NCBI GenBank assembly: GCA_016212105.1
Contig: JACRHJ010000032.1
Location: forward strand, 1 to 64,000
DNA: 64,000 nt
From: Nitrospirota bacterium
GTDB taxonomy: Bacteria > Nitrospirota > JACRHJ01
Direction of reading: 5' to 3'
Shown one piece after another: positions 50,762-64,000 of this stretch. Numbering within the stretch: position 1 is the stretch's first letter; every line of letters starts with the position of its first letter. The position numbers and the translations under genes are program-made. The notes beneath the pieces were generated by a model. That model was given only the letters and a program-made list of their open reading frames with translations, did not search any database and was not told the origin of the DNA.

Positions 50762-52975
50762 ATGAATGCGTCCAACAGGCCGTCCATCCATAATATCGCC
50801 TATGTCGCGGTATTCCTCCTCATCATCTCGGTCATCGTATACCTGAACCTCGTCTTCCAGCAGAACCTGAAAAACGACATCGCGCACCAGTTCTCGGACC
50901 AGCAGCTCCTCCTCGCCCGAGGCGCATCGCTCAGCATAGAAAAGCACATCGACAACTACGTAAAACACCTGGTCACGCTCGCGCAGCTCCCGTCAATACG
51001 CGACATGGAGGAGTCCCGCGCGCGTGAGCAGATACTGAAGACGATCATAGACGAGATACCGCGCGAGGAGGAGACCATCGTCAACTTCCAGCTCATAGAC
51101 AAGCGCGGCATTATCGTCATCGACACGTCCACGCACAGCTCCGCCGGCATGGACATCTCGGACCGCGAGTACTTCGCCAAGACACGCCAGCTCGTCAAGG
51201 GCGAGGTCAACATCACGAACATGCTCCGGATGAAGGAGCTGAGCCCGTCTAAGCGGTACATCGTCATATCCACGCCTCTGTACAAGAACACAGCCGGGGG
51301 GCCGGTTGCATTCAACGGCGCGGCCCTCTTCGCCGTCAGCGTGGACGACATCGCGGGCGAGTACGTCTCGCAGATACGGATCGGGAAGCGCGGCTACGCA
51401 TGGGTCATGGACAGCCACGGCACGCTGGTGTACCACCCGACCAACCCGGAGATGATAGGCAGGAACCTCCTTGACGCGGACGAGTCCTGCTACCAGTGTC
51501 ACAGGTCGTTCGACGCGGAGAGGAAGATACTCGCGGGCGTGGGCATCGACTACGGCCTGTACACCGCGCCCATGGGCGAGGACAAGCTAATATCGTTCTC
51601 CCGCGCGCGCGTCGGCTCGGAGTCCTGGATCGTATGCGTCACCGCCCCGTTCACGGAGGTCACGTCTCTCATCGCGAAGTCGATGAAGCTGTACTCGTGG
51701 CTCATCTCCATAATCTTCTTCACCGTCATCGGCACGTCCGTGTTCTTCATCGTCCTGATAAAGAAAAAGACCGCGGCCGACGAGCGCGCGAAGTACGCGT
51801 CCGAGCTGGAGGTCAGGATAAAGGAGCGCACCAGCGAGCTTTCCCGCGAGAAGGAGAAGCTGCACGCGATCCTGTCCGGGTTCGGCGCGGCGGTCTCGCT
51901 CATAGACCGGAACTACAAGGTGCTCTGGGCGAACGAGGTCGTGGCCCAGAACGTGAAGTACCCGGTAGGGAAGATGTGTTACGCAGCCTACAGGAACAGG
52001 ACGAGCCCGTGCCAGGGCTGCCCGCTGCCCGCCGCGCTGGCGAGCGGCCGCATCGAGACCGCAGAGATGGCATGCCGCAGGCCCGGCGTCAGGCCCGGGG
52101 CTGCCCGAGACCCACTGGACGACTACATCACGGGCGACCTGCTCGCGATGCTTGCGCACGACGGCGCGGGCTACTTCCAGTTCGTCATCGCGCCCATCAA
52201 AGACAAGGACGGAAACGTCACCCAGGTGGTCGAGCTTATACAGGACGTGACCGGGATAAAGAGGCTGGAGCAGTCGATGATGCACTCCGAGAAGCTTGCC
52301 GCGCTCGGGCGCATATCGGCCGGCATAGCGCACGAGATAGGAAACCCGCTCACGTCCATATACTCGTTCATACAGATACTCCAGGAGAACCGGTACGACA
52401 GCTTCACGAACAACACGCTCGACACCATATCGTTCCACATCAACCGCATTAAGGAGATAGTCCAGCAGATGTCCGGGTTCTCCCGCAGCTACACGGTGGA
52501 GAAAGGGCCGGTGGACATGAACGACTCCGTCCGGGCCGCGCTCGACCTGCTCGGCCACGAGAAGGGTATGAAGGGCTGCCAGCTCTTCACGAGCTACTTC
52601 CCGGAGATGCTCATCGTGACGGCGGACGAGAAGTGGCTGGTCTCGGTCTTCGTCAACCTGATAATAAACGCGCTCGACGCGATGCCGGGGCCGGGGCGGC
52701 TCACGGTCAGGACCTGCGTCGAGGAGGTGCGCGAGGGCTGCCGGAGGGCGGTGGCCGAGGTCTCGGACACCGGCGTCGGCATACCGCACGAGGACATAGA
52801 GAAGATATTCGACCCGTTCTACACGACGAAGCAGTCAGGCAAGGGGACCGGCCTGGGCCTCGCTGTCACGTATTCCATAATCAAGGACCTGGGCGGCGAC
52901 ATATCCGTCGTGAGCCAGCCGGGCGAGGGTACGACTTTCACGATCAAGCTGCCGATGGAGGAGTGTTTTGGCTGA
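50762..52975 (+). CDS. Sensor histidine kinase with haem-binding (CxxCH) periplasmic Cache domain
   Basis: A 737-residue membrane kinase. A membrane helix (about 12-33), a periplasmic double-Cache-type sensor (about 40-300) and a second helix (about 311-333) lead to a coiled coil (about 340-370), a PAS domain (about 366-500), HisKA with the phosphorylated His524 (SAGIAHEIGNPLTS) and HATPase (NLIINALDAMPG, VSDTGVGIP, GKGTGLGLAV). The periplasmic domain contains CYQCH at 243-247, a c-type haem attachment motif. The PAS domain carries CYAAYRNRTSPCQGC, a possible metal or disulfide site. It likely senses periplasmic redox state or a haem ligand (inference). The response-regulator start overlaps its 3' end by 8 bases. 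Confidence 0.9.
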   Translation: MNASNRPSIHNIAYVAVFLLIISVIVYLNLVFQQNLKNDIAHQFSDQQLLLARGASLSIEKHIDNYVKHLVTLAQLPSIRDMEESRAREQILKTIIDEIPREEETIVNFQLIDKRGIIVIDTSTHSSAGMDISDREYFAKTRQLVKGEVNITNMLRMKELSPSKRYIVISTPLYKNTAGGPVAFNGAALFAVSVDDIAGEYVSQIRIGKRGYAWVMDSHGTLVYHPTNPEMIGRNLLDADESCYQCHRSFDAERKILAGVGIDYGLYTAPMGEDKLISFSRARVGSESWIVCVTAPFTEVTSLIAKSMKLYSWLISIIFFTVIGTSVFFIVLIKKKTAADERAKYASELEVRIKERTSELSREKEKLHAILSGFGAAVSLIDRNYKVLWANEVVAQNVKYPVGKMCYAAYRNRTSPCQGCPLPAALASGRIETAEMACRRPGVRPGAARDPLDDYITGDLLAMLAHDGAGYFQFVIAPIKDKDGNVTQVVELIQDVTGIKRLEQSMMHSEKLAALGRISAGIAHEIGNPLTSIYSFIQILQENRYDSFTNNTLDTISFHINRIKEIVQQMSGFSRSYTVEKGPVDMNDSVRAALDLLGHEKGMKGCQLFTSYFPEMLIVTADEKWLVSVFVNLIINALDAMPGPGRLTVRTCVEEVREGCRRAVAEVSDTGVGIPHEDIEKIFDPFYTTKQSGKGTGLGLAVTYSIIKDLGGDISVVSQPGEGTTFTIKLPMEECFG

Positions 52976-54317
52976 GCGGATACTTGTGGTGGACGACGAG
53001 AAGTCGATATGCGACGCGCTCGCGCACGTGCTGAAGAAAGCGGGCTACGCGGTAACCACGGCGTTTTCTGGTGTCGAAGGCATAAAACTCATCGAGAGCA
53101 TGGGGTTCGACCTGGTCATCTCCGACATCAAGATGGAGGGGGTAAGCGGCCTCGACGTCCTCAGACGGTCGCTGGAGGTCTCGCCCGACATGCCGGTCAT
53201 CATGATAACCGCGTTCGGCTCGATTGACTCGGCGGTCGAGGCGGTCCGGCTCGGCGCCGCCGACTACATCACCAAGCCCTTTGTCAACGAGGACCTCCGG
53301 ATGCGCGTGGCGAAGACACTCGAGACGCGAAGGCTCGCCGCCGAGAACCGCGAGCTGAAGGCGCAGCTCTCGGACAAGTACGACTTCTCACGCGTGATAG
53401 GCCGCTCGGACGCGATGAAGAAGGTCTTCGTCCTCCTCGAGAAGGCGATACCCGCAAGCAGCAACATCCTGATTACAGGCGAGACAGGGACCGGCAAGGG
53501 CCTGGTCGCCAAGACAATACACTACAACAGCCCGAGGAAGGACCGGCCGTTCGTAGCGGTAAACTGCGGCGCGATACCGGAGCACCTCCTCGAAAGCCAG
53601 CTCTTCGGCCACAAGAGGGGCGCGTTCACCTCCGCCGACCGGGACGCGAAGGGCGTCGTCGAGGGGGCGGAGGGCGGGACGCTCTTCCTCGACGAGATAG
53701 GCGAGATGCCGCTCGGCCTCCAGGTCAAGATTCTCAAGCTAATCCAGGACCGGGAGTACCTGCCTGTGGGCGGGACCGCGCCCGTTTCTCTCGACGCGCG
53801 CATCATCGCCGCGACAAACCAGGACCTGGAGAAACTCATCTCCGAGGGCCGGTTCCGCCAGGACCTTTACTACCGCCTGAACGTGCTCGAGATAGAGATG
53901 CCGCCGCTCCGCGCGCGCGGCGACGACTCGCTCTTCCTCGCGCGCGAGTTCGTGAAGGAGTTCGGTAAGGCGGCGGGCGGCAAGGTTACGGGCATGGACA
54001 AGTCCGTCGAGCGGGTCATCGTCAACTACCCGTGGCCGGGCAACATCAGGGAACTCCGGAACGTCGTCGAGCGCGCCCTCGTCCTGTGCGACGGATGCAC
54101 CATAACGTCCGAGCACCTGCCGGAGCGGTTCTCCCAGGCCGGGCCCGGCGGCCGCATCAACCCGCACCTCAAGGAGGCGCACGAGGAGTTCGAGTCCAGG
54201 TACATCCAGCGCATCTGCGAGGAGAACGCCGGTGACAAGGAGCTTACCGCGAAGATTCTCGGGATAGACCTTGCGACGCTGTACAGGAAGATAAAGAAGT
54301 ACGATATAGGGTGCTGA
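52968..54317 (+). CDS. Sigma-54-dependent response regulator (NtrC family)
   Basis: A 449-residue three-domain regulator. The receiver has Asp10/Asp11, the phosphoacceptor Asp53 and Lys103. The AAA+ domain has Walker A GETGTGKG (171-178) and Walker B GGTLFLDE (236-243). The sigma-54-contact loop reads GAFTSA (218-223), not the usual GAFTGA. A Fis-type helix-turn-helix ends it (LTAKILGIDLATLYRKIKKY). TTG 52968 starts inside the kinase gene, so the pair is coupled. Consensus sigma-54 promoters at 44781 and 63008 in this window are candidate targets (inference). Confidence 0.94.
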   Translation: MAERILVVDDEKSICDALAHVLKKAGYAVTTAFSGVEGIKLIESMGFDLVISDIKMEGVSGLDVLRRSLEVSPDMPVIMITAFGSIDSAVEAVRLGAADYITKPFVNEDLRMRVAKTLETRRLAAENRELKAQLSDKYDFSRVIGRSDAMKKVFVLLEKAIPASSNILITGETGTGKGLVAKTIHYNSPRKDRPFVAVNCGAIPEHLLESQLFGHKRGAFTSADRDAKGVVEGAEGGTLFLDEIGEMPLGLQVKILKLIQDREYLPVGGTAPVSLDARIIAATNQDLEKLISEGRFRQDLYYRLNVLEIEMPPLRARGDDSLFLAREFVKEFGKAAGGKVTGMDKSVERVIVNYPWPGNIRELRNVVERALVLCDGCTITSEHLPERFSQAGPGGRINPHLKEAHEEFESRYIQRICEENAGDKELTAKILGIDLATLYRKIKKYDIGC

Positions 54318-56087: not shown

Positions 56088-57221
56088 TTATCCCTGCACG
56101 TGGCACGAGTCGCAGGCGTCCGCCGCGAAGGCCTTCTTCCCGTTGTGGCAGCTTCCGCAGTATTTTCCGTTATTGATCTTGTCCATCGTCATCTTGCCCG
56201 CCGTCTTCTTGAAACCGAACAACGCGGTATGGCAGTCCTGGCATTTCATGCCCATGCCCATGTGGTTGTCGTGGGAGAACCTCACAGGCCCGAAGCCCTC
56301 AACGTTGTAGGCCACGGTGCCGCCGCCCTTCGCGCCGCCCATGTGGCAGCGGCCGCAGTCCGACGCCGGGAACGCGCCCTTGCCGTTGTGGCATGTGCCG
56401 CAGCCCTTGCCGGAGAACATCGCGGCCATAGTCATCTTCCCGCTGGAGCGCGTCATCTTGAAGGCCTTGTCGTGGCAGGAGTCGCAGGTGAGCCCCTTGG
56501 ACATGTGCTTCTTGTGGTCGAAGGAGACGTCGCCCGCGGACGCCACCGCATAGGTTATCCTGCCGCCGCCCACCTTGCCGCTCATCGATACGCCTGTCGG
56601 CATCCCGTTCGGGTGGCACATGCCGCACGAGGTCGTCTTCTCGTCGTGGCAGGTGTAGCAGGTGTCCATCGTCGGGCGGTAGGTCGCAAATCCGGCCGGC
56701 CGCCTCTCGTGGAATATGTTGTAGTGGCAGTAGGTGCACTTTATGCCCAGCTCGCCGATATGCTTCTGGTGCGGCATCCGCACCCGCTCGTTCGCGGGCC
56801 TCGCGCTGCTCGCCGCCTCCACGCCGACTTTTTTGTCGAGGTCGTCCTTGTGGCAGCCGAGGCAGCGCTCGGAGACGAGGTCCTCCTTGGCCGAGAACCG
56901 GAAGTGGAACGCCGCCGCCATCACCCCCGGCTCCGAGACGTCGTGGCAGGTCGCGCAGTTGATGTCCGGGTGCAGCGCGGACTTCTGCCAGAAGTTCTGG
57001 TCGCGCTGGTTGACGTGGCAGTTCAGGCAGTAGAGCTTCTGGGTGCCGACCAGGTGCACGAAGCCCAGAGAGAGTACCACGCCCGGCAGCGCCAGCACCG
57101 CGAGGACGAGAAGCAGCGTCGTCTTCTTTATCCCGGACAGCTTCTTGATGAGCGGCCTGACATCCGGCGACGGCGCCTTCATGATCAGGTCAATCAGCCT
57201 GTTGTTCTTATCGTTGCCCAT
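56088..57221 (-). CDS. Membrane-anchored 12-haem cytochrome with two triheme repeats
   Basis: A 377-residue protein with one N-terminal membrane helix (about 33-56), then a NapC/NrfH-like or related region with six CxxCH motifs (CLNCH, CATCH, CLGCH, CTYCH, CYTCH, CGMCH). Two tandem 62-residue triheme units follow: 232-293 (FDHKKHM, CDSCH, CGTCHNGKGAF, CGRCH) and 312-374 (FSHDNHM, CQDCH, CGSCHNGKKAF, CDSCH). The triheme unit matches the pattern I know as the nanowire-type three-haem repeat. It probably carries electrons between the quinone pool or the molybdoenzyme and periplasmic acceptors. Last gene of the minus-strand operon. Confidence 0.9.
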   Translation of the reverse strand: MGNDKNNRLIDLIMKAPSPDVRPLIKKLSGIKKTTLLLVLAVLALPGVVLSLGFVHLVGTQKLYCLNCHVNQRDQNFWQKSALHPDINCATCHDVSEPGVMAAAFHFRFSAKEDLVSERCLGCHKDDLDKKVGVEAASSARPANERVRMPHQKHIGELGIKCTYCHYNIFHERRPAGFATYRPTMDTCYTCHDEKTTSCGMCHPNGMPTGVSMSGKVGGGRITYAVASAGDVSFDHKKHMSKGLTCDSCHDKAFKMTRSSGKMTMAAMFSGKGCGTCHNGKGAFPASDCGRCHMGGAKGGGTVAYNVEGFGPVRFSHDNHMGMGMKCQDCHTALFGFKKTAGKMTMDKINNGKYCGSCHNGKKAFAADACDSCHVQG

Positions 57222-57256
57222 TTTGGACTCCTTTATCAGGATGCTGTAAACCTATT

Positions 57257-57298
57257 AAAAGTTCTTGGGCCGCCTTCTTACAAGAAGGCGGGACTTTT
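57257..57298 (+). repeat. GGGAC hairpin, copy 13 (3' of the molybdoenzyme gene)
   Basis: Stem CCGCCTTCTT / AAGAAGGCGG, loop AC. GGGAC faces the minus-strand stop at 57309, about 14 bases away. Confidence 0.8.
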
Positions 57299-57308
57299 CT
57301 TCAGTCTT

Positions 57309-59507
57309 TTAAGCTTTTGCGAGTGTTACCTTTGTCAGCATCCAGCCCTGCCCGCCGGACTCCTTGTCCACGGCGAACGGTATTATCCGGTTCGGGTTTA
57401 CGCCGAGGCCTTCGCCCTCCTGGTGCCACCAGACGCAGTCGGTGAAGGGGTCCTGGCTTTCAAACCGCTCGGCCTTCTCTATCTTGCCGTAGCCCGCGTG
57501 GCCGGAGCCCGCCGCGAGCGCGACCGTCCTCGGATGCACGCCCGGCGAGAGCATCACCTCGACCTCTATCTTCCCGGCCGAGGTCGTGAGGTGCACCTTG
57601 TCGCGCGTCCCCAGTCCGAGCGCCCGGCCGACGGCCGCGTTGATGAACACCCGGCTCCCGTGGTTTATCTCCTTCAGGTAGAGGTTGTTCTCCGTCGAGC
57701 CCTCGTTGTAGCCTGTCGGGTCGTACTTGACCAGGACGAACTCGTCGTCCCGGAAGTTCTTGTACTGCTCCGGCTGCTCGTATGACGGGAGCGCCGGCCC
57801 GTCCTTCCAGGCGATGTCTATCTTGCCGGACGGCGTCGCGTACCCGGACAGGCCCGCCCCGCCCATTATCCCGTGGCTGCCGTGGCTTGACGTGTAGTAG
57901 AAACCGGTCGCGGCGAGGTTGTCGATGCCCGCGCCCAGCCTCGACGCCGCCTGCGCGGCGTAGTCCTCCGAGTCCGAGTACCCGAGCGGCCTGCCCGCGG
58001 CGGACGCGATGCCCGCGAGGATTTCCACGAAGGGCTTCGTCCCGCCGACTGGTATGACCACCGGCTGGCCGTAGTTGACGACAGGCTCGCCGTCCGGGCC
58101 CGGCACGACGTCCACCGAGTACTCCTCGAGGTACGTCGTCACGGGAAGCACCAGGTCCGCGTACAGGCCGGTGTCCGATATGTTTGTGTCCATGCAGACG
58201 ATGAACGGCAGCGCCGTCTCGTCGGCGAGGAGCTTCGCTATCTCGCCCGCCTCCGGCGAGCCGTAGGCCGGGTCCGCGCCGTGTATGATGTACGCGCCGA
58301 CCCTGCGGCTTCCGTCCTTGATGGACTTGTAGAAGGCCTCCGGGGCAACCCTCTCCGCGCCCTTGACCGGCCCTTCAGCCTTGAGGTATTTCGGCATCAG
58401 GTTGCAGCCCCGCCTGTTCAGCTTGCCGGTTATGACGGACAAAAGCCGTACCGCGCGCTCGTTGGACGTCCCGTTCGGGTGCTTGCTTACGCCGCCGCCG
58501 GTCAGGACGACGCCTTTGTCCACGCGGGCGAACTCGGCCGCGAGCCGCCTGATGTCGTCTGCCTTGACTCCGCTTATCCGCTCCGCGAGCGACGGCGTGA
58601 ACGAGGCCAGGTGTTCCTTCAGCGCCGACGGGGTGGTGTTCGTCCAGCGCGCGATGAAGGATCCGTCGTACAGCCCCTCGTGCATTATCACGTTCGCCAT
58701 GGCGAGCGCCACGACAGTGTCCGTGCCCGGAAGGAGCGGCATCCACTCGTCGCTCCGGCCCGCCGTCGGCGACAGCCTCGGGTCGAACGTCACAAGCTTC
58801 ACCGTGCTGTCCTTCGACCGGGCGGAGACTATGTCCGCGACCGCCCTGACGCCGGACGACCCGCATGAGAACGGGTCCGCGCCGAAGTTGAGTATGTAAC
58901 CGGTGTTCGCAAGGTCCGGTACGTCCGTGGTACAGCCGAACGTGCCGGTGAGCGCCGCCTCGCGGCTCGGCGAGACGCTGCAACCGTGCGAGACGAGCAG
59001 CCCGCCGCCAAGCCTGGACAGGAACTCCTCGCTTGCGCCTGAGGACGGCCCGCCCGCGGTCTCGACCACGAGCTTCCGGCCCGTGGAGGATTTCAGGTGT
59101 TTTGCTATCTCGGACGCGGCGTCTTCCCACGATATTTCCTGCCAGCGGCCCTCGCCGCGTTTGCCCGTCCTCCTCATCGGCTTCGTCAGGCGTTCCGGGT
59201 CGCACTGCGCGTACAGCCCGGCCTGGCCGATAAGGCAGAGCCTGCCCTGGTTCACCGGGTGCGCCGGGTTGCCGTTCAACTTCATAAGGACGCCGTCCTG
59301 GACGTACGCCACTATCCCGCAGCCCGCCCCGCAGCCGCCGCAGGACGTCGGGATGCCCTTTACGCGCTTGCCGGTGTTGCGGTTCACGTAGTATCCGCCC
59401 TGGTCGGCCGAGGATGCGAACAGCTCTCCGAAGAGGCTGTTGGCCGCCAAGACGGAGGCCCCTGCCGCCGTGTATTTTAGGAAGTCCCTCCTGAGTATCG
59501 TCTTCAT
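57309..59507 (-). CDS. Tat-exported molybdopterin oxidoreductase (PsrA/PhsA-like)
   Basis: A 732-residue catalytic subunit of the DMSO-reductase superfamily. A Tat signal (LRRDFLKYTAAGASVLAA) puts it in the periplasm. The N-terminal [4Fe-4S] ligands are Cys56, Cys59, Cys63 and Cys91. HGCSVSPSREAA offers Cys176 as likely Mo/W ligand, as in polysulfide/thiosulfate-type enzymes. The C-terminal molybdopterin dinucleotide-binding region (INHGSRVFINAAVGRALGLG) is complete. With the NrfD and ferredoxin genes next to it, it forms a CISM (PsrABC-like) complex. The substrate cannot be read from sequence: polysulfide, thiosulfate, tetrathionate or another. CGGAGG precedes its ATG. Confidence 0.92.
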   Translation of the reverse strand: MKTILRRDFLKYTAAGASVLAANSLFGELFASSADQGGYYVNRNTGKRVKGIPTSCGGCGAGCGIVAYVQDGVLMKLNGNPAHPVNQGRLCLIGQAGLYAQCDPERLTKPMRRTGKRGEGRWQEISWEDAASEIAKHLKSSTGRKLVVETAGGPSSGASEEFLSRLGGGLLVSHGCSVSPSREAALTGTFGCTTDVPDLANTGYILNFGADPFSCGSSGVRAVADIVSARSKDSTVKLVTFDPRLSPTAGRSDEWMPLLPGTDTVVALAMANVIMHEGLYDGSFIARWTNTTPSALKEHLASFTPSLAERISGVKADDIRRLAAEFARVDKGVVLTGGGVSKHPNGTSNERAVRLLSVITGKLNRRGCNLMPKYLKAEGPVKGAERVAPEAFYKSIKDGSRRVGAYIIHGADPAYGSPEAGEIAKLLADETALPFIVCMDTNISDTGLYADLVLPVTTYLEEYSVDVVPGPDGEPVVNYGQPVVIPVGGTKPFVEILAGIASAAGRPLGYSDSEDYAAQAASRLGAGIDNLAATGFYYTSSHGSHGIMGGAGLSGYATPSGKIDIAWKDGPALPSYEQPEQYKNFRDDEFVLVKYDPTGYNEGSTENNLYLKEINHGSRVFINAAVGRALGLGTRDKVHLTTSAGKIEVEVMLSPGVHPRTVALAAGSGHAGYGKIEKAERFESQDPFTDCVWWHQEGEGLGVNPNRIIPFAVDKESGGQGWMLTKVTLAKA

Positions 59508-59520
59508 CCAAGCACCTCCG

Positions 59521-60444
59521 CTACATGATAGGTATGAACTGTCCGCCGACCGTCACCGTGTACCGCATTATGTACACGCCGATGAGCGCGAAGACCATGA
59601 GGACGGCCCATACCTTTAGGTTTTTGTTGACGCCCGGCACAGCCATCGCAAGCACCGGCAGGAGGTTCCCGAGACCCAGGTCGACATACGCGTAGAGGCT
59701 GCTCAGGTGGCCGGTCAAAAGCATCTTGGCCGCCTCGACCGCCTCCTCCGACTCGAACCGCATGTTCACCTGCTCCGTGAAGACTATGAACAGGTTCAGT
59801 ATCATGAACACGCCCGCGAGACGCGTAAGGTTTATCAGGAGGCCGTTGTCCGTCTCCTTCTCGTGCTCGTCGGCCCAGGAGTCCTTCCTGTTCTTGGTCC
59901 AGTGCCGGATGATGCCTATGAGCGTCATCAGCGCAATGCCCGAGACCATCGCCGAGGACAGGAAGTATATCGGCATGAGCGACGTGCTCCAGGCCACGCG
60001 GGATATGCCCATCGAAAGGACGAAGCCCGTGTAGGCATGCACGCCAATGGCGAGCGGCAGGCTTATCGCGCCGAATATCTTCGCGTACTTCATGTTGTTC
60101 TTGAAGAGCATTACGATGTAAATCGTGGTGGTTATCGGGTAGGAGCAGAGGAAGACCGAGCCCCACGTAAGCGGCGAGGTCGAGTTGCCCCTCGTCATAA
60201 GGTACCAGAACCTGAGCGGCTGTCCCAGGTCCACGACCAGCAGTATCGGCGCGGTCGAGAAGAGTATGATGACCCCTATCGCGCCTATCTTGGCTATCGG
60301 CTTGTACTCCTTCTTGCCGGTAAGCGTCGCGCCGATAGAGAGCAGAGAGCAGCCGGCGTGCAGGCCGACCATGTAGAAGTACGTCGCTATCGCTATGGTC
60401 AGCGGTATCTCGTGCGGCACGTTGTACAGAACGTTCATGTCCAT
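59521..60444 (-). CDS. NrfD/PsrC-type membrane quinone-interacting subunit
   Basis: A 307-residue polytopic membrane protein with about eight hydrophobic segments. VPHEIPLTIAIATYFYMVGL, HAGCSLLSIG, LLVVDLGQPLRFWYLM and the final KVWAVLMVFALIGVYIMRY are NrfD-type. It should anchor the molybdoenzyme/ferredoxin arm and exchange electrons with (mena)quinone. It starts at ATG 60442-60444 after AGGAGG, in a leader carrying GGGAC hairpin copy 14. The molybdoenzyme gene starts 13 bases after its stop. Confidence 0.93.
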   Translation of the reverse strand: MDMNVLYNVPHEIPLTIAIATYFYMVGLHAGCSLLSIGATLTGKKEYKPIAKIGAIGVIILFSTAPILLVVDLGQPLRFWYLMTRGNSTSPLTWGSVFLCSYPITTTIYIVMLFKNNMKYAKIFGAISLPLAIGVHAYTGFVLSMGISRVAWSTSLMPIYFLSSAMVSGIALMTLIGIIRHWTKNRKDSWADEHEKETDNGLLINLTRLAGVFMILNLFIVFTEQVNMRFESEEAVEAAKMLLTGHLSSLYAYVDLGLGNLLPVLAMAVPGVNKNLKVWAVLMVFALIGVYIMRYTVTVGGQFIPIM

Positions 60445-60460: not shown

Positions 60461-60502
60461 AAAGTCCCGCCTTCTTGTAAGAAGGCGGCCCAAGAACTTT
60501 TA
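60461..60502 (-). repeat. GGGAC hairpin, copy 14 (5' of the NrfD gene)
   Basis: Stem CCGCCTTCTT / AAGAAGGCGG. The GGGAC end runs straight into the AGGAGG ribosome-binding site, about 17 bases from the start. Confidence 0.85.
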
Positions 60503-60578
60503 ATGGGTTAGACCCCTGACCGCCAGTTTATCCCCCTCCCCACCCGCGGGGGGGGGAAGGGGGGCTGGGGGGGCCCCT

Positions 60579-61217
60579 TTAGAATATCTCTTCGAGAACC
60601 TTGTGGTCGTGCTCGATGCTGTACTCGACGTCTATGCCCTTGAGCGGGTCCGCCATGTCCTTGTCCAGCCCGACGTAGAAGACGGACGGCAGGGTGCCCG
60701 AGTCCGGCTTCAGCACCGAGGTCGGCAGCTTTATCAGGAGCTGCGCCACCTCGCTCTCCGGGTCGTTCATGTCGCCAAAGACACGGGCCCCGGCGGGGCA
60801 GGTCTCGACGCAGGCGGGCTTCAGGCCCGCGTCGACCCTGTGGCTGCAGAAGTAGCACTTCTGGGCGTACTTCCTTACAGGGTTCAGGTAACGCACCTGG
60901 TACGGGCAGGCCGCCATGCAGTACTTGCAGCCGGTGCACTTGTGCGGGTCAATCAATACGATGCCGTCGTCACGCTGGTACGACGCCTTCGTGGGACAGA
61001 CCCGGACGCATATAGCCTTCTCGCAGTTGTTGCAGAGGACCGGCAGGGACATGGTCCTGGCGACCGGATAATCGCCCTTCTCCATGACCTTCACCCAGGA
61101 CCTCCAGACCGCGGGCGGGACTTCGTTCTCCGCCTTGCACGCGACAGAGCAGCTGTGGCAGCCGATGCACCTGGTGAGGTCTATGACCATCGCGTATCTC
61201 TTGGCCGTGTTCGACAT
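60579..61217 (-). CDS. Four-cluster [4Fe-4S] ferredoxin subunit (PsrB/DmsB-like)
   Basis: A 212-residue iron-sulfur electron-transfer subunit. It has four Cys groups: CIGCHSCSVAC (17-27), CNNCEKAICVRVCP, CTGCKYCMAACP and CYFCSHRVDAGLKPACVETCP. This is the classic DmsB/PsrB/NrfC layout, linking the molybdoenzyme to the NrfD subunit. It has no signal peptide and is expected to be co-exported with the Tat-signalled partner. Gene order ferredoxin, NrfD, molybdoenzyme, cytochrome is on one strand. A 12-bp-arm hairpin lies before its start. Confidence 0.93.
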   Translation of the reverse strand: MSNTAKRYAMVIDLTRCIGCHSCSVACKAENEVPPAVWRSWVKVMEKGDYPVARTMSLPVLCNNCEKAICVRVCPTKASYQRDDGIVLIDPHKCTGCKYCMAACPYQVRYLNPVRKYAQKCYFCSHRVDAGLKPACVETCPAGARVFGDMNDPESEVAQLLIKLPTSVLKPDSGTLPSVFYVGLDKDMADPLKGIDVEYSIEHDHKVLEEIF

Positions 61218-61303: not shown

Positions 61304-61639
61304 TCAGTTTACCTTCGTCTCCGAATGCGCAAGCTCGCGGTGCTCCTTGGGCTCGGTCAAGGCGCCGTATGCGTGGCCTGTCAGCCAGCCTATCGAGGAG
61401 CAGGTCACCACGAAGAATATGCCGGTGACCAGGACGCCCGCCAGCATGGACGCTCCGACTATCACCCTCGAAAGGAGCGTCGTCCCGGCCGGGGTATGGA
61501 ACACGTTGTTGACTATGTCGAGGCCTATCGCCCCGCCGATGAGTGAACCCTGGAGCAGGCCGAAGAGCGCGAACATCACAAGCCCCACACCCGCGCCAAC
61601 CAGCCCGTATTTCCTGCCCATCTGGTCTTTGTACTTCAT
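61304..61639 (-). CDS. Two-helix glycine-rich membrane protein, paralogue 4
   Basis: A 111-residue member of a set of four tandem paralogues. First hairpin: VGLVMFALFGLLQGSLIGGA then IGLDIVNN. Second: LLSRVIVGASMLAGVLVTGI then FFVVTCSSIGWLTG. The shared pattern is F-x-x-F/L-G-x-x-Q-G-x-x-x-G-G-x-x-G-L, then x-R-x6-M-x-A-G. Short charged N- and C-termini. The function is not recognised. AAGGAGG precedes its ATG. It is the gene next to the ferredoxin subunit of a molybdoenzyme complex, so a structural or assembly role there is possible. Confidence 0.75.
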   Translation of the reverse strand: MKYKDQMGRKYGLVGAGVGLVMFALFGLLQGSLIGGAIGLDIVNNVFHTPAGTTLLSRVIVGASMLAGVLVTGIFFVVTCSSIGWLTGHAYGALTEPKEHRELAHSETKVN

Positions 61640-61824
61640 GGCCTTGCCTCCTTCCAGGACGTTTGATTATGAATCCGGCAACTTTATATGCAAACGAGCG
61701 AAGTAAGAAAAGTCTCTGGATTCCCGCTTTCGCGGGAATGACGCCGTTTATTGTCGTCCCCGTGAAAACGGGGACCCAGTGTCTTTTGCATATTTAATTG
61801 CCGAAGCAATAATATGTGTGCGCG
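61640..61824. repeat. Repeats within the respiratory operon
   Basis: AATCCGGCAACT, a TCCCGCTTTCGCGGGA hairpin (about 61720-61738) and a CCCCGTGAAAACGGGG hairpin (about 61757-61776) lie between two of the paralogues. Confidence 0.6.
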
Positions 61825-62184
61825 TCAGTCCTTGCTGGTCTCCGAGGCTTCCGCGTACTCGTAACCGGCGTCGGTCGCATCCGCGCCCTGCGCGACGCTC
61901 ACGAGGTATCCGCCCGCCGCGCCTATCGCGCTGCCCGCGACCACGAAGGCCACGAAGGATATGCCGACGCCCGCGAGCATCGCGGCGGCGATTACCGCGC
62001 GCGGCAGAAGCTCGTTCGCCATCAGCCGGAGCGTCGTCTCGCCGAACAGGTAGTTTATGAGGCTGAGGCCGGCCGTGCCGCCTATCGCCGCGCCCTGGAG
62101 CAGCCCGAAGACCGCGAACATCGCCACGCCTATACTCGCGCCTATAACACCACACTTCTTCATGAGTACGCTTTTCTCTACCAT
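61825..62184 (-). CDS. Two-helix glycine-rich membrane protein, paralogue 3
   Basis: A 119-residue paralogue: IGVAMFAVFGLLQGAAIGGT then AGLSLINYLFG, and LLPRAVIAAAMLAGVGISFV then AFVVAGSAIGAAGG. It has the in-membrane Gln-Gly and the Arg...MLAG pair shared by the set. The tail is acidic (DATDAGYEYAEASETSKD). AGGAG precedes ATG 62182-62184. GGGAC hairpin copy 15 stands in its leader. The function is not recognised. Confidence 0.75.
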   Translation of the reverse strand: MVEKSVLMKKCGVIGASIGVAMFAVFGLLQGAAIGGTAGLSLINYLFGETTLRLMANELLPRAVIAAAMLAGVGISFVAFVVAGSAIGAAGGYLVSVAQGADATDAGYEYAEASETSKD

Positions 62185-62221
62185 GGTAAGGCTCCTTTCG
62201 AGGAAAACATTAAAAACCAGG

Positions 62222-62264
62222 AAAAGTCCCGCCTTCTTGTAAGAAGGCGGCCCAAGAACTTTTA
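62222..62264 (-). repeat. GGGAC hairpin, copy 15 (5' of paralogue 3)
   Basis: Stem CCGCCTTCTT / AAGAAGGCGG. GGGAC end about 40 bases before the start at 62184. Confidence 0.8.
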
Positions 62265-62277
62265 ACAGTAAAACAGG

Positions 62278-62610
62278 CTACCTTGCCTGAGTAGCAGCTT
62301 CCTTGGTCTCGGCCTGCTTAGGGGACAGCACGCGGCCGACCGCCCAGCCCGCGACCCCGCCGACCGTCATGAACATCACGAAGGATACCAGAGCGCCTGC
62401 CAGCATGGACGCCCCGATTACCACGCGGGATATGAGGCTCGCACCCGCGATCTCGATCGCGCCGGAACCGAACACCTCGTTCGCAAGCACCAGGCCCGCC
62501 GTGCCGCCTATCGCCGCGCCCTGCAGAAGACCTAAGACCGCGAAACCCGCAAGACCCGCCCAGAGACCAGCCGTCAAACACTTTTTCGCCATGCTCTCGT
62601 TCGTCTTCAT
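62278..62610 (-). CDS. Two-helix glycine-rich membrane protein, paralogue 2
   Basis: A 110-residue paralogue: LAGFAVLGLLQGAAIGGTAG then LVLANEVFG, and LISRVVIGASMLAGALVSFV then MFMTVGGVAGWAVG. The tail is polar (SPKQAETKEAATQAR). ATG 62608-62610 (MKTNESMAKK) is preferred over an upstream in-frame codon because AGGAGGTG lies 5 bases before it. It starts 10 bases after the stop of paralogue 1. The function is not recognised. Confidence 0.75.
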   Translation of the reverse strand: MKTNESMAKKCLTAGLWAGLAGFAVLGLLQGAAIGGTAGLVLANEVFGSGAIEIAGASLISRVVIGASMLAGALVSFVMFMTVGGVAGWAVGRVLSPKQAETKEAATQAR

Positions 62611-62620
62611 GACACACCTC

Positions 62621-62968
62621 CTATTGAAAATGGACAATGCCCTTGTCCGAAGTACCCGTGATGCAGTGCGACCTCTTCACGGCCTGCCCGCCCCTGACGG
62701 CGTAGCCTATCAGCCTGCCCGCCGCGAAGCCGCTCGATATGAACATCGTCGCGGAAAGTATGATGCCCGCAACCATCCCGATACCGGTCATAACCCTCGA
62801 CATCGCCTCCGCGCTCATGCCGGCCGGGCCGAGGATGTACCCGCCAAGCTCAAGGCCGGCCGCCCCGCCGACCAGCACGCCCTGCATGAAACCGAAGACA
62901 ACGAAGGCCGCCGCCCCGGCGAGGCCGCCCAGCAGGCCGAGCATCTTGGAATACCTTTTCGCGTCCAT
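62621..62968 (-). CDS. Two-helix glycine-rich membrane protein, paralogue 1
   Basis: A 115-residue paralogue and first gene of the operon: GAAAFVVFGFMQGVLVGGAA then GLELGGYILG, and AMSRVMTGIGMVAGIILSAT then MFISSGFAAGRLIGYA. GGAGGGTG precedes ATG 62966-62968, and a consensus sigma-54 promoter lies about 40 bases upstream. The most diverged of the four (MVAG instead of MLAG). Its function is unknown; the glycine spacing suggests tight helix packing, as in oligomeric membrane assemblies. Confidence 0.75.
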   Translation of the reverse strand: MDAKRYSKMLGLLGGLAGAAAFVVFGFMQGVLVGGAAGLELGGYILGPAGMSAEAMSRVMTGIGMVAGIILSATMFISSGFAAGRLIGYAVRGGQAVKRSHCITGTSDKGIVHFQ

Positions 62969-63007: not shown

Positions 63008-63023
63008 AGCAAACGGCGTGCCA
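63008..63023 (-). promoter_or_regulatory. Sigma-54 promoter of the respiratory operon
   Basis: On the minus strand TGGCACGCCGTTTGCT matches the -24/-12 consensus (TGGCACR-N4-TTGCW) at every fixed position, about 40 bases before the first paralogue. Confidence 0.85.
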
Positions 63024-63245
63024 ACAAAAACAGGATTGTTTTGGTGTGCGGATAATTAAATTGCAACTCGTTGATAATTATCGGCAATAAACTGCGAGGC
63101 GGGATTGTCTGGCCAGCCTGGGAAGGCGGGCGGGACGGGGCCGGCCCATGTTTTTTTGCACGGATGCAAATAGGGGCCGTCCTGAATTTGCAGAATTGCG
63201 AGTTATCAGTTATGGTTATGAAGAGGATAAGGGCGGGACGCCCGC
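63024..63245. other. Upstream region of the sigma-54 promoter
   Basis: An AT-rich tract with GTTGATAATTATC (about 63070-63082), a small dyad that could bind a regulator, then a GC-rich unassigned stretch. No gene or known repeat. Confidence 0.35.
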
Positions 63246-63279
63246 AAAAAAAGAAGGGCCGACACACGGGTCGGCCCTT
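63246..63279 (-). terminator. Possible terminator of the upstream cytochrome gene
   Basis: A GCCGAC-type hairpin (AAGGGCCGAC / GTCGGCCCTT, 6-base loop) followed on the minus strand by CTTTTTTT. It lies about 190 bases past the stop of the multiheme gene. Confidence 0.55.
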
Positions 63280-63467: not shown

Positions 63468-64000
63468 TTACCTGTCCCCCGTCTTCCACGTATGCGCCTT
63501 GTGGCATGTGCCGCAGGCGGCCCTGTTGCCCGCGTGTATCTTGCCGGTCAGGTCCTTGGCGTGGCAGCCGCGGCATTTCTCGTCCGACGGCTTTATCGCG
63601 CCGTGCGGGTCGTGGCAGTCGAAACACTCGAGCTTTGCCATCGGTGCGTCGGCCGGGAACATGGACTCCTTGTGGCAGTTCATGCAACGCTGCCTCGTCG
63701 GGATGACCCGGTTCTTCTCCGTCCCCTCCCGCAGGGAGAAGATGTGGCAGTCCACGCAGGAGAGCCCCACCATCCCGGCCGCGTGCACGGACTTGTCCTT
63801 GTGGCACCTGGCGCAGGCGTCCCTGTCGAACGGGAAGTCGTGCTTTTTGAACGGGTGGCAGTTGAAGCACTCGATGAAGTGGTGGCGGTAATGGCCGTAG
63901 GCCTCCTGCGGCTTGGGCTCGGGCTGGCCCTCCACCTTGTCCATGCCCTGAGACTTCTGCTCCCAGTGGCACTCGCCGCAGGACTCCCACGGGAGCTTCT
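63468..64000 (-). CDS. Multiheme c-type cytochrome (5' end outside window)
   Basis: The reading frame continues past the window edge; the internal ATG at 63942-63944 is not the real start, because WESCGECHWEQKSQG lies in frame upstream of it. The visible 177 residues hold eight CxxCH motifs (CGECH, CFNCH, CARCH, CVDCH, CMNCH, CFDCH, CRGCH, CGTCH) and several HDFPF/HAAG-type spacers typical of NapC/NrfH- or c3-like chains. It is an exported electron carrier, upstream of the sigma-54 operon on the same strand but probably separated from it by a terminator. Confidence 0.88.
   Translation of the reverse strand, partial: KLPWESCGECHWEQKSQGMDKVEGQPEPKPQEAYGHYRHHFIECFNCHPFKKHDFPFDRDACARCHKDKSVHAAGMVGLSCVDCHIFSLREGTEKNRVIPTRQRCMNCHKESMFPADAPMAKLECFDCHDPHGAIKPSDEKCRGCHAKDLTGKIHAGNRAACGTCHKAHTWKTGDR

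Follow-up and report, generated by a model that had tools for sequence, protein, structure and literature searches.

A putative new family of small glycine-rich two-helix membrane proteins with candidate sigma-54 promoters, frequently encoded near quinone and multiheme-cytochrome genes

The stretch of DNA analysed, hereafter the window, spans 64,000 nucleotides of a contig (JACRHJ010000032.1) from a Nitrospirota bacterium. Four small membrane-protein genes, each endowed with a recognisable ribosome-binding site, lie in tandem on its minus strand, between positions 61304 and 62968. In the order of transcription they are paralogue 1 (62621-62968, 115 aa), paralogue 2 (62278-62610, 110 aa counted from the ATG), paralogue 3 (61825-62184, 119 aa) and paralogue 4 (61304-61639, 111 aa); all are of the type called A below, and paralogue 1, first after a sigma-54 promoter, is the most diverged copy. 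Alignment of the four yields 18 invariant columns, and each protein carries both the motif F-x-x-[FL]-G-x-x-Q-G-x3-GG-x-x-GL and the motif R-x6-M-x-AG. When the whole 3.05-Mb genome was searched with one member, exactly these four genes were returned (E 1e-62 to 6e-9); a profile built from the four found the same set only, and a profile of the related B proteins re-found two of them and no extra copy. Judged from their sequences, the four genes are true paralogues. In the family tree they form one clade (support 97/93), with paralogue 1 on a long branch, which indicates a local amplification of the family in the window lineage. None of the four has a Pfam or NCBIfam assignment. A preliminary description of the locus had proposed four tandem paralogues sharing these motifs, two glycine-patterned helices in each, and the lack of a family name. 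The three points hold, the second by virtue of glycine repeats in both helices and of a two-helix AlphaFold2 model.

Downstream, on the same strand, lie genes for a 4Fe-4S ferredoxin-like subunit of the DsrO/TtrB type (60579-61217, 212 aa) and an NrfD membrane subunit (59521-60444, 307 aa), for a molybdopterin oxidoreductase with a TAT-like leader (57309-59507, 732 aa), and for a multiheme cytochrome c (56088-57221, 377 aa) combining an NrfH-like N-terminus with triheme nanowire domains (TIGR04257). The molybdoenzyme falls in the PhsA/QrcB neighbourhood, and scores under every curated NCBIfam cut-off. Pfam thus bears out the respiratory gene set that had been read downstream of the paralogues. 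A decaheme NrfH/NapC-like cytochrome gene (63468-64000, minus strand, continuing to contig position 64337; 289 aa) is a separate upstream unit, and the same gene cluster adjoins the family in other genomes.

A sigma-54 promoter, TGGCACGCCGTTTGCT (63008-63023, minus strand), matches perfectly the consensus TGGCACG-N4-TTGCT, and is located 39 bp ahead of the start codon of paralogue 1. Sites as strong as this number 25 in the genome, against 10 for a reversed control pattern. A terminator-like hairpin with a T tract (63254-63279, minus strand) separates the promoter from the decaheme gene. The paralogues and the genes down to the cytochrome had been assumed to share one promoter. The promoter itself is borne out; that all these genes are on a single transcript is plausible, as they are on the same strand and separated by gaps of about 13 to 185 bp, though against it several of these gaps contain hairpin repeats, one of them terminator-like. 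A 40-bp palindromic intergenic repeat, GTCCCGCCTTCTTGTAAGAAGGCGGCCCAAGAACTTTTAA, is found at 57255-57294, 60464-60503 and 62226-62265; counting copies with 3 mismatches or fewer, the genome hosts 33, these three in the gene cluster among them. Just upstream of the promoter, an inverted repeat (TGCGGATAATTA-N16-TAATTATCGGCA, 63047-63086) is a possible activator site.

The family is not confined to the window. When 296 genomes of the window's phylum, probably Nitrospirota, were searched with a profile of the four paralogues, 73 proved to contain relatives, and 64 of them, from 16 families, gave strong matches (E below 1e-5). A scan of genome contigs with narrow peptide patterns confirmed at least one locus. 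The survey covers these 296 genomes, all in one phylum, and makes no claim of absence for other phyla. Searches of plasmid sequences gave no match, and none was confirmed in viral contigs; a mobile or plasmid origin was consequently rejected. No description of the family was found in the literature searched, nor a name in the libraries searched, and these small glycine-rich two-helix membrane proteins probably constitute a family undescribed before.

Two subtypes, A and B, are cleanly separated in the tree (100/100), and are related to each other in profile comparison at E 4e-21. Type A proteins carry the signature LLPGSFIGGVIGL, in which the window copies have Q in place of P, type B proteins the signature VPGFYFGSYG. 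We studied 42 loci, the window's own included, with genes called by a simple script. The usual unit is an A gene followed by a B gene (23/42 loci); the window unit is made of type A only. In one genome, represented by loci L057, L058 and L070, type A genes on two contigs are about 96% identical over 435 bp, and contig ends fall inside these repeats. At L058 one A gene apparently continues into the end of a B gene, which may reflect a deletion or an assembly artefact.

Promoters of the same kind are nearly universal in the family. The pattern TGGCAYR-N5-TGCW was searched in the 150 bp upstream of the 40 units having at least 150 bp of upstream sequence; 36 of them carry a site at up to one mismatch, against about 0.5 expected by chance, the chance rate in the same loci being 0.013 per 150 bp. 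These are consensus matches, not measured transcription starts. The site is perfect in 32 units, and all loci together (1.14 Mb, both strands) hold just 38 perfect sites. Most sites end 30-50 bp ahead of the first start codon. Sigma-54 control of electron-transfer genes is known, for example in Geobacter (PMC2725144). The promoters are also compatible with the main rival of the interpretation preferred below, namely that A and B proteins afford a phage-shock-like, sigma-54-induced protection, their oligomers plugging or stiffening a leaky inner membrane and preserving the proton-motive force, the need for which would be greatest with low-energy respiration. PspB and PspC are likewise small membrane proteins under sigma-54; many A/B units are bicistronic and stand alone, and the sequences look structural and cofactor-free. 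In sequence, the single match to PspB or PspC profiles, a weak PspC transmembrane hit in one member, falls at 14.5 bits (E 0.03) far under the cut-off of 27. The gene neighbourhood differs as well: no PspA or PspF analogue was recognised beside the units, their neighbouring regulators belong to two-component systems of NtrC type, and the subtype tracks the type of respiratory complex. We regard protection of this sort as doubtful.

In 20 of the 42 loci, neighbour-gene clustering revealed respiratory (quinone/multiheme-cytochrome) genes within 5 kb. Two modules recur, with gene names backed by Pfam and NCBIfam. The first begins with a decaheme NrfH/NapC-like cytochrome, next to which comes an A-B pair, followed in turn by a seven-heme cytochrome, cytochrome b and a triheme cytochrome of the c7 type. 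In the second, an A gene, often an A-A pair, precedes genes for NrfD, an FeS protein and a triheme cytochrome. The subtype matches the complex, A alone accompanying NrfD/FeS, A-B accompanying cytochrome b. Type B was found in eight of nine cytochrome-b loci, and in none of nine NrfD loci, window included (about 2e-4 one-sided by our own arithmetic, uncorrected for relatedness). Triheme cytochromes of the TIGR04257 type are encoded by all 64 strongly positive genomes and by 82 of the remaining 232, a co-occurrence for which the Fisher value overstates the case, since related genomes are not independent. Family-bearing genomes are a strict subset of those bearing TIGR04257. These cytochromes are widespread in the phylum (146/296 genomes), and most of the genomes encoding them lack the family, and they can therefore work without it. 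The link to respiratory genes inferred at first from one operon extends well outside the window. A tie to the molybdoenzyme, which had also been drawn, was rejected, as no relative of the window enzyme was found in the other 41 loci, and the enzyme is peculiar to the window.

In the other 22 loci no respiratory gene falls within 5 kb of the unit, several of these loci being cut by contig ends. The family is thus no obligate part of a single complex, contrary to the view first entertained; CISM and NrfD subunits would be expected always to be encoded with their complex. The stand-alone units mostly have their own sigma-54 promoter, and 17 of them retain the A-then-B order. According to an alternative view, the proteins are true but optional membrane subunits binding NrfD or cytochrome b directly, the copies that stand alone being remnants or spares. 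Many loci in which A/B genes immediately precede an NrfD, FeS or seven-heme gene, the matching of subtype and complex, and the tandem expansion in the window can all be read in this way. Yet more than half of the units are away from any complex and mostly keep A-B order and promoter intact; we hold direct binding to be unlikely.

Two further proteins without assignment recur in the loci. A second small glycine-rich membrane protein, of about 97 aa, sits near the decaheme gene or a response regulator (L049, 3572-3907; L054, 3386-3679; L062, 6145-6447; and four other loci). The other, which looks soluble and measures about 120 aa, has a conserved PCDEA motif and is located near A genes in NrfD-type loci (L046, 7299-7655; L049, 7440-7811; L059; L070).

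Many respiratory loci, and the window, are accompanied by genes for a sensor kinase and an NtrC-type activator of sigma-54. In the window these map on the plus strand (50762-54317), and encode a histidine kinase with a periplasmic dCache domain containing a CxxCH motif (50762-52975) and, beside it, the response regulator (52968-54317). Kinase orthologues with the motif were identified in nine other family loci (L039, L054, L059, L062, L063, L066, L069, L070 and L074). The position of the genes suggests that the kinase may control the A/B promoter. According to a recent preprint, single Cache domains (DUF3365/Tll0287) can bind heme covalently, and those joined to signalling modules show properties of NO sensors (PMC12889525). 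The double Cache domain of the window kinase is similar in idea; its conserved CxxCH suggests that the protein may sense by covalent heme while lying outside that single-Cache heme family.

AlphaFold2 folds the type A protein (paralogue 4, with 52 homologues) into two helices, at residues 2-47 and 55-95 (monomer model, mean pLDDT 82), and the type B protein into helices at 2-47 and 55-110 (monomer model, pLDDT 74). Conserved type A residues are G15, G19, F23, G27, G31, G35, G36 and G39 in the first helix, M65, G68, F76, G84 and G88 in the second; glycines are spaced at multiples of four (15, 19, 27, 31, 35 and 39; 68, 84 and 88), and F23 and F76 are in register with these stripes. Charged residues are almost solely at the ends and in the polar loop with conserved R58 which joins the helices. 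In type A, the stretches devoid of K, R, E, D and H reach median lengths of 41 and 33 residues, exceeding that needed for crossing the membrane. Basic residues are gathered at both termini, about three at each, which suggests that both face the cytoplasm. The type A helices contain no conserved acidic residue, histidine or cysteine; type B has frequent cysteine at 71 and lysine at 13. The lack of conserved ionisable or ligating residues in the A helices argues against a redox, proton or ion-path role and for a structural one, and the pore or quinone path initially envisaged was accordingly dropped. A channel, a proton path or an element of a c-ring-like rotor would fit two glycine-rich helices, and the weak Foldseek matches of the A model include F-ATPase c-rings at E 4 or more; nothing in that search was significant (best E 0.76), and the carboxylate that ATP synthase subunit c conserves in its membrane helix has no counterpart, no Asp or Glu being conserved inside the helices. 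Such a function appears extremely improbable.

The same model invites comparison with Mic10, a small two-helix hairpin of the mitochondrial MICOS complex. The A/B proteins may curve the inner membrane into folds accommodating respiratory complexes. We know of no such internal membranes in these bacteria, and none of 52 A and 28 B members matched the Mic10 profile at E 0.1; the resemblance is of type only. Hairpins of such type can bend membranes, as Mic10 does (PMC8071792), the A/B helices are longer than the bilayer, and Geobacter forms intracytoplasmic membranes under energy limitation by a mechanism that is unknown (PMC10082016). All considered, we deem membrane curving very improbable.

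The interpretation that we tentatively prefer, with a probability of roughly 0.45, is that A and B proteins form a structural glycine-zipper oligomer which organises, or helps to assemble, the membrane around quinone/multiheme-cytochrome modules. Of the heteromeric membrane element of a respiratory complex originally hypothesised, the assembly factor or scaffold and the notion of an unrecognised respiratory element survive; the fixed subunit, the pore and the quinone path do not. The proteins would be small inner-membrane helical hairpins with both ends facing the cytoplasm, and glycine stripes would drive their packing into oligomers, homomeric or heteromeric, in which A joins either B or another A. 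Oligomers would serve structurally, as a membrane organiser or an assembly scaffold for complexes made of multiheme cytochromes and either NrfD/FeS or cytochrome b. The CxxCH dCache kinase and the sigma-54 regulator may switch A/B genes on together with the complexes, in response to a redox or similar signal, and stand-alone pairs may provide the same scaffold in trans. In the window lineage, one A gene would have been amplified to four copies beside the molybdoenzyme/NrfD complex. Oligomerisation, topology and the organising role are all inferred. A bolder extension, which we consider quite improbable, is that paired glycine hairpins are a phylum-wide, sigma-54-controlled system building an inner-membrane domain for low-energy electron transfer from quinone to cytochromes, a functional counterpart of the organisers of mitochondrial cristae. 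Should the scaffold exist, electron-transfer modules of this sort would need dedicated structural membrane proteins. An unassigned family whose promoter signature is very tight, and which occurs in mostly uncultured bacteria rich in multiheme cytochromes, provides a marker of, and a testable handle on, the assembly and switching of quinone-linked electron export, a step left unexplained by lists of cytochrome genes.

Comparison of the family with Pfam, NCBIfam and PDB sequence profiles produced no convincing match, and the four paralogues fall below curated cut-offs. The most frequent weak Pfam resemblance is to oleosin (PF01277), detected at E 2e-4 at best and in 8 of the 52 A members, the window member scoring 12.9 bits against a gathering score of 25. 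Oleosin is also a long hydrophobic hairpin, but is a plant lipid-droplet protein, whereas A proteins have the polar R58 loop. Similarly, the glycine zipper YMGG (PF13441) was matched at 15.9 bits, under its gathering score of 28.9, and the glycine zipper 2TM (PF05433) by two B members at a mere E 0.022. With Mic10 the A/B proteins share, in the models, two membrane-spanning helices, each bearing glycine motifs, a presumed oligomeric state and, by inference, ends on one side of the membrane, a likeness in the way of working only; the A/B helices are longer, and the A/B proteins differ by their paired subtypes and sigma-54 control. Respiratory operons are known to include small accessory membrane proteins. 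The window operon resembles those of CISM enzymes (Phs, Qrc, Dms) in its molybdoenzyme, FeS and NrfD-type membrane subunits, and we know of no named CISM subunit resembling the four paralogues. The CbcL- and CbcBA-type quinol oxidases of Geobacter, for which the parts of the reports consulted do not mention A/B proteins (PMC6295460, PMC12307469), are akin to the modules flanking the family, as they combine multiheme cytochromes with cytochrome b and have sigma-54 regulators nearby.
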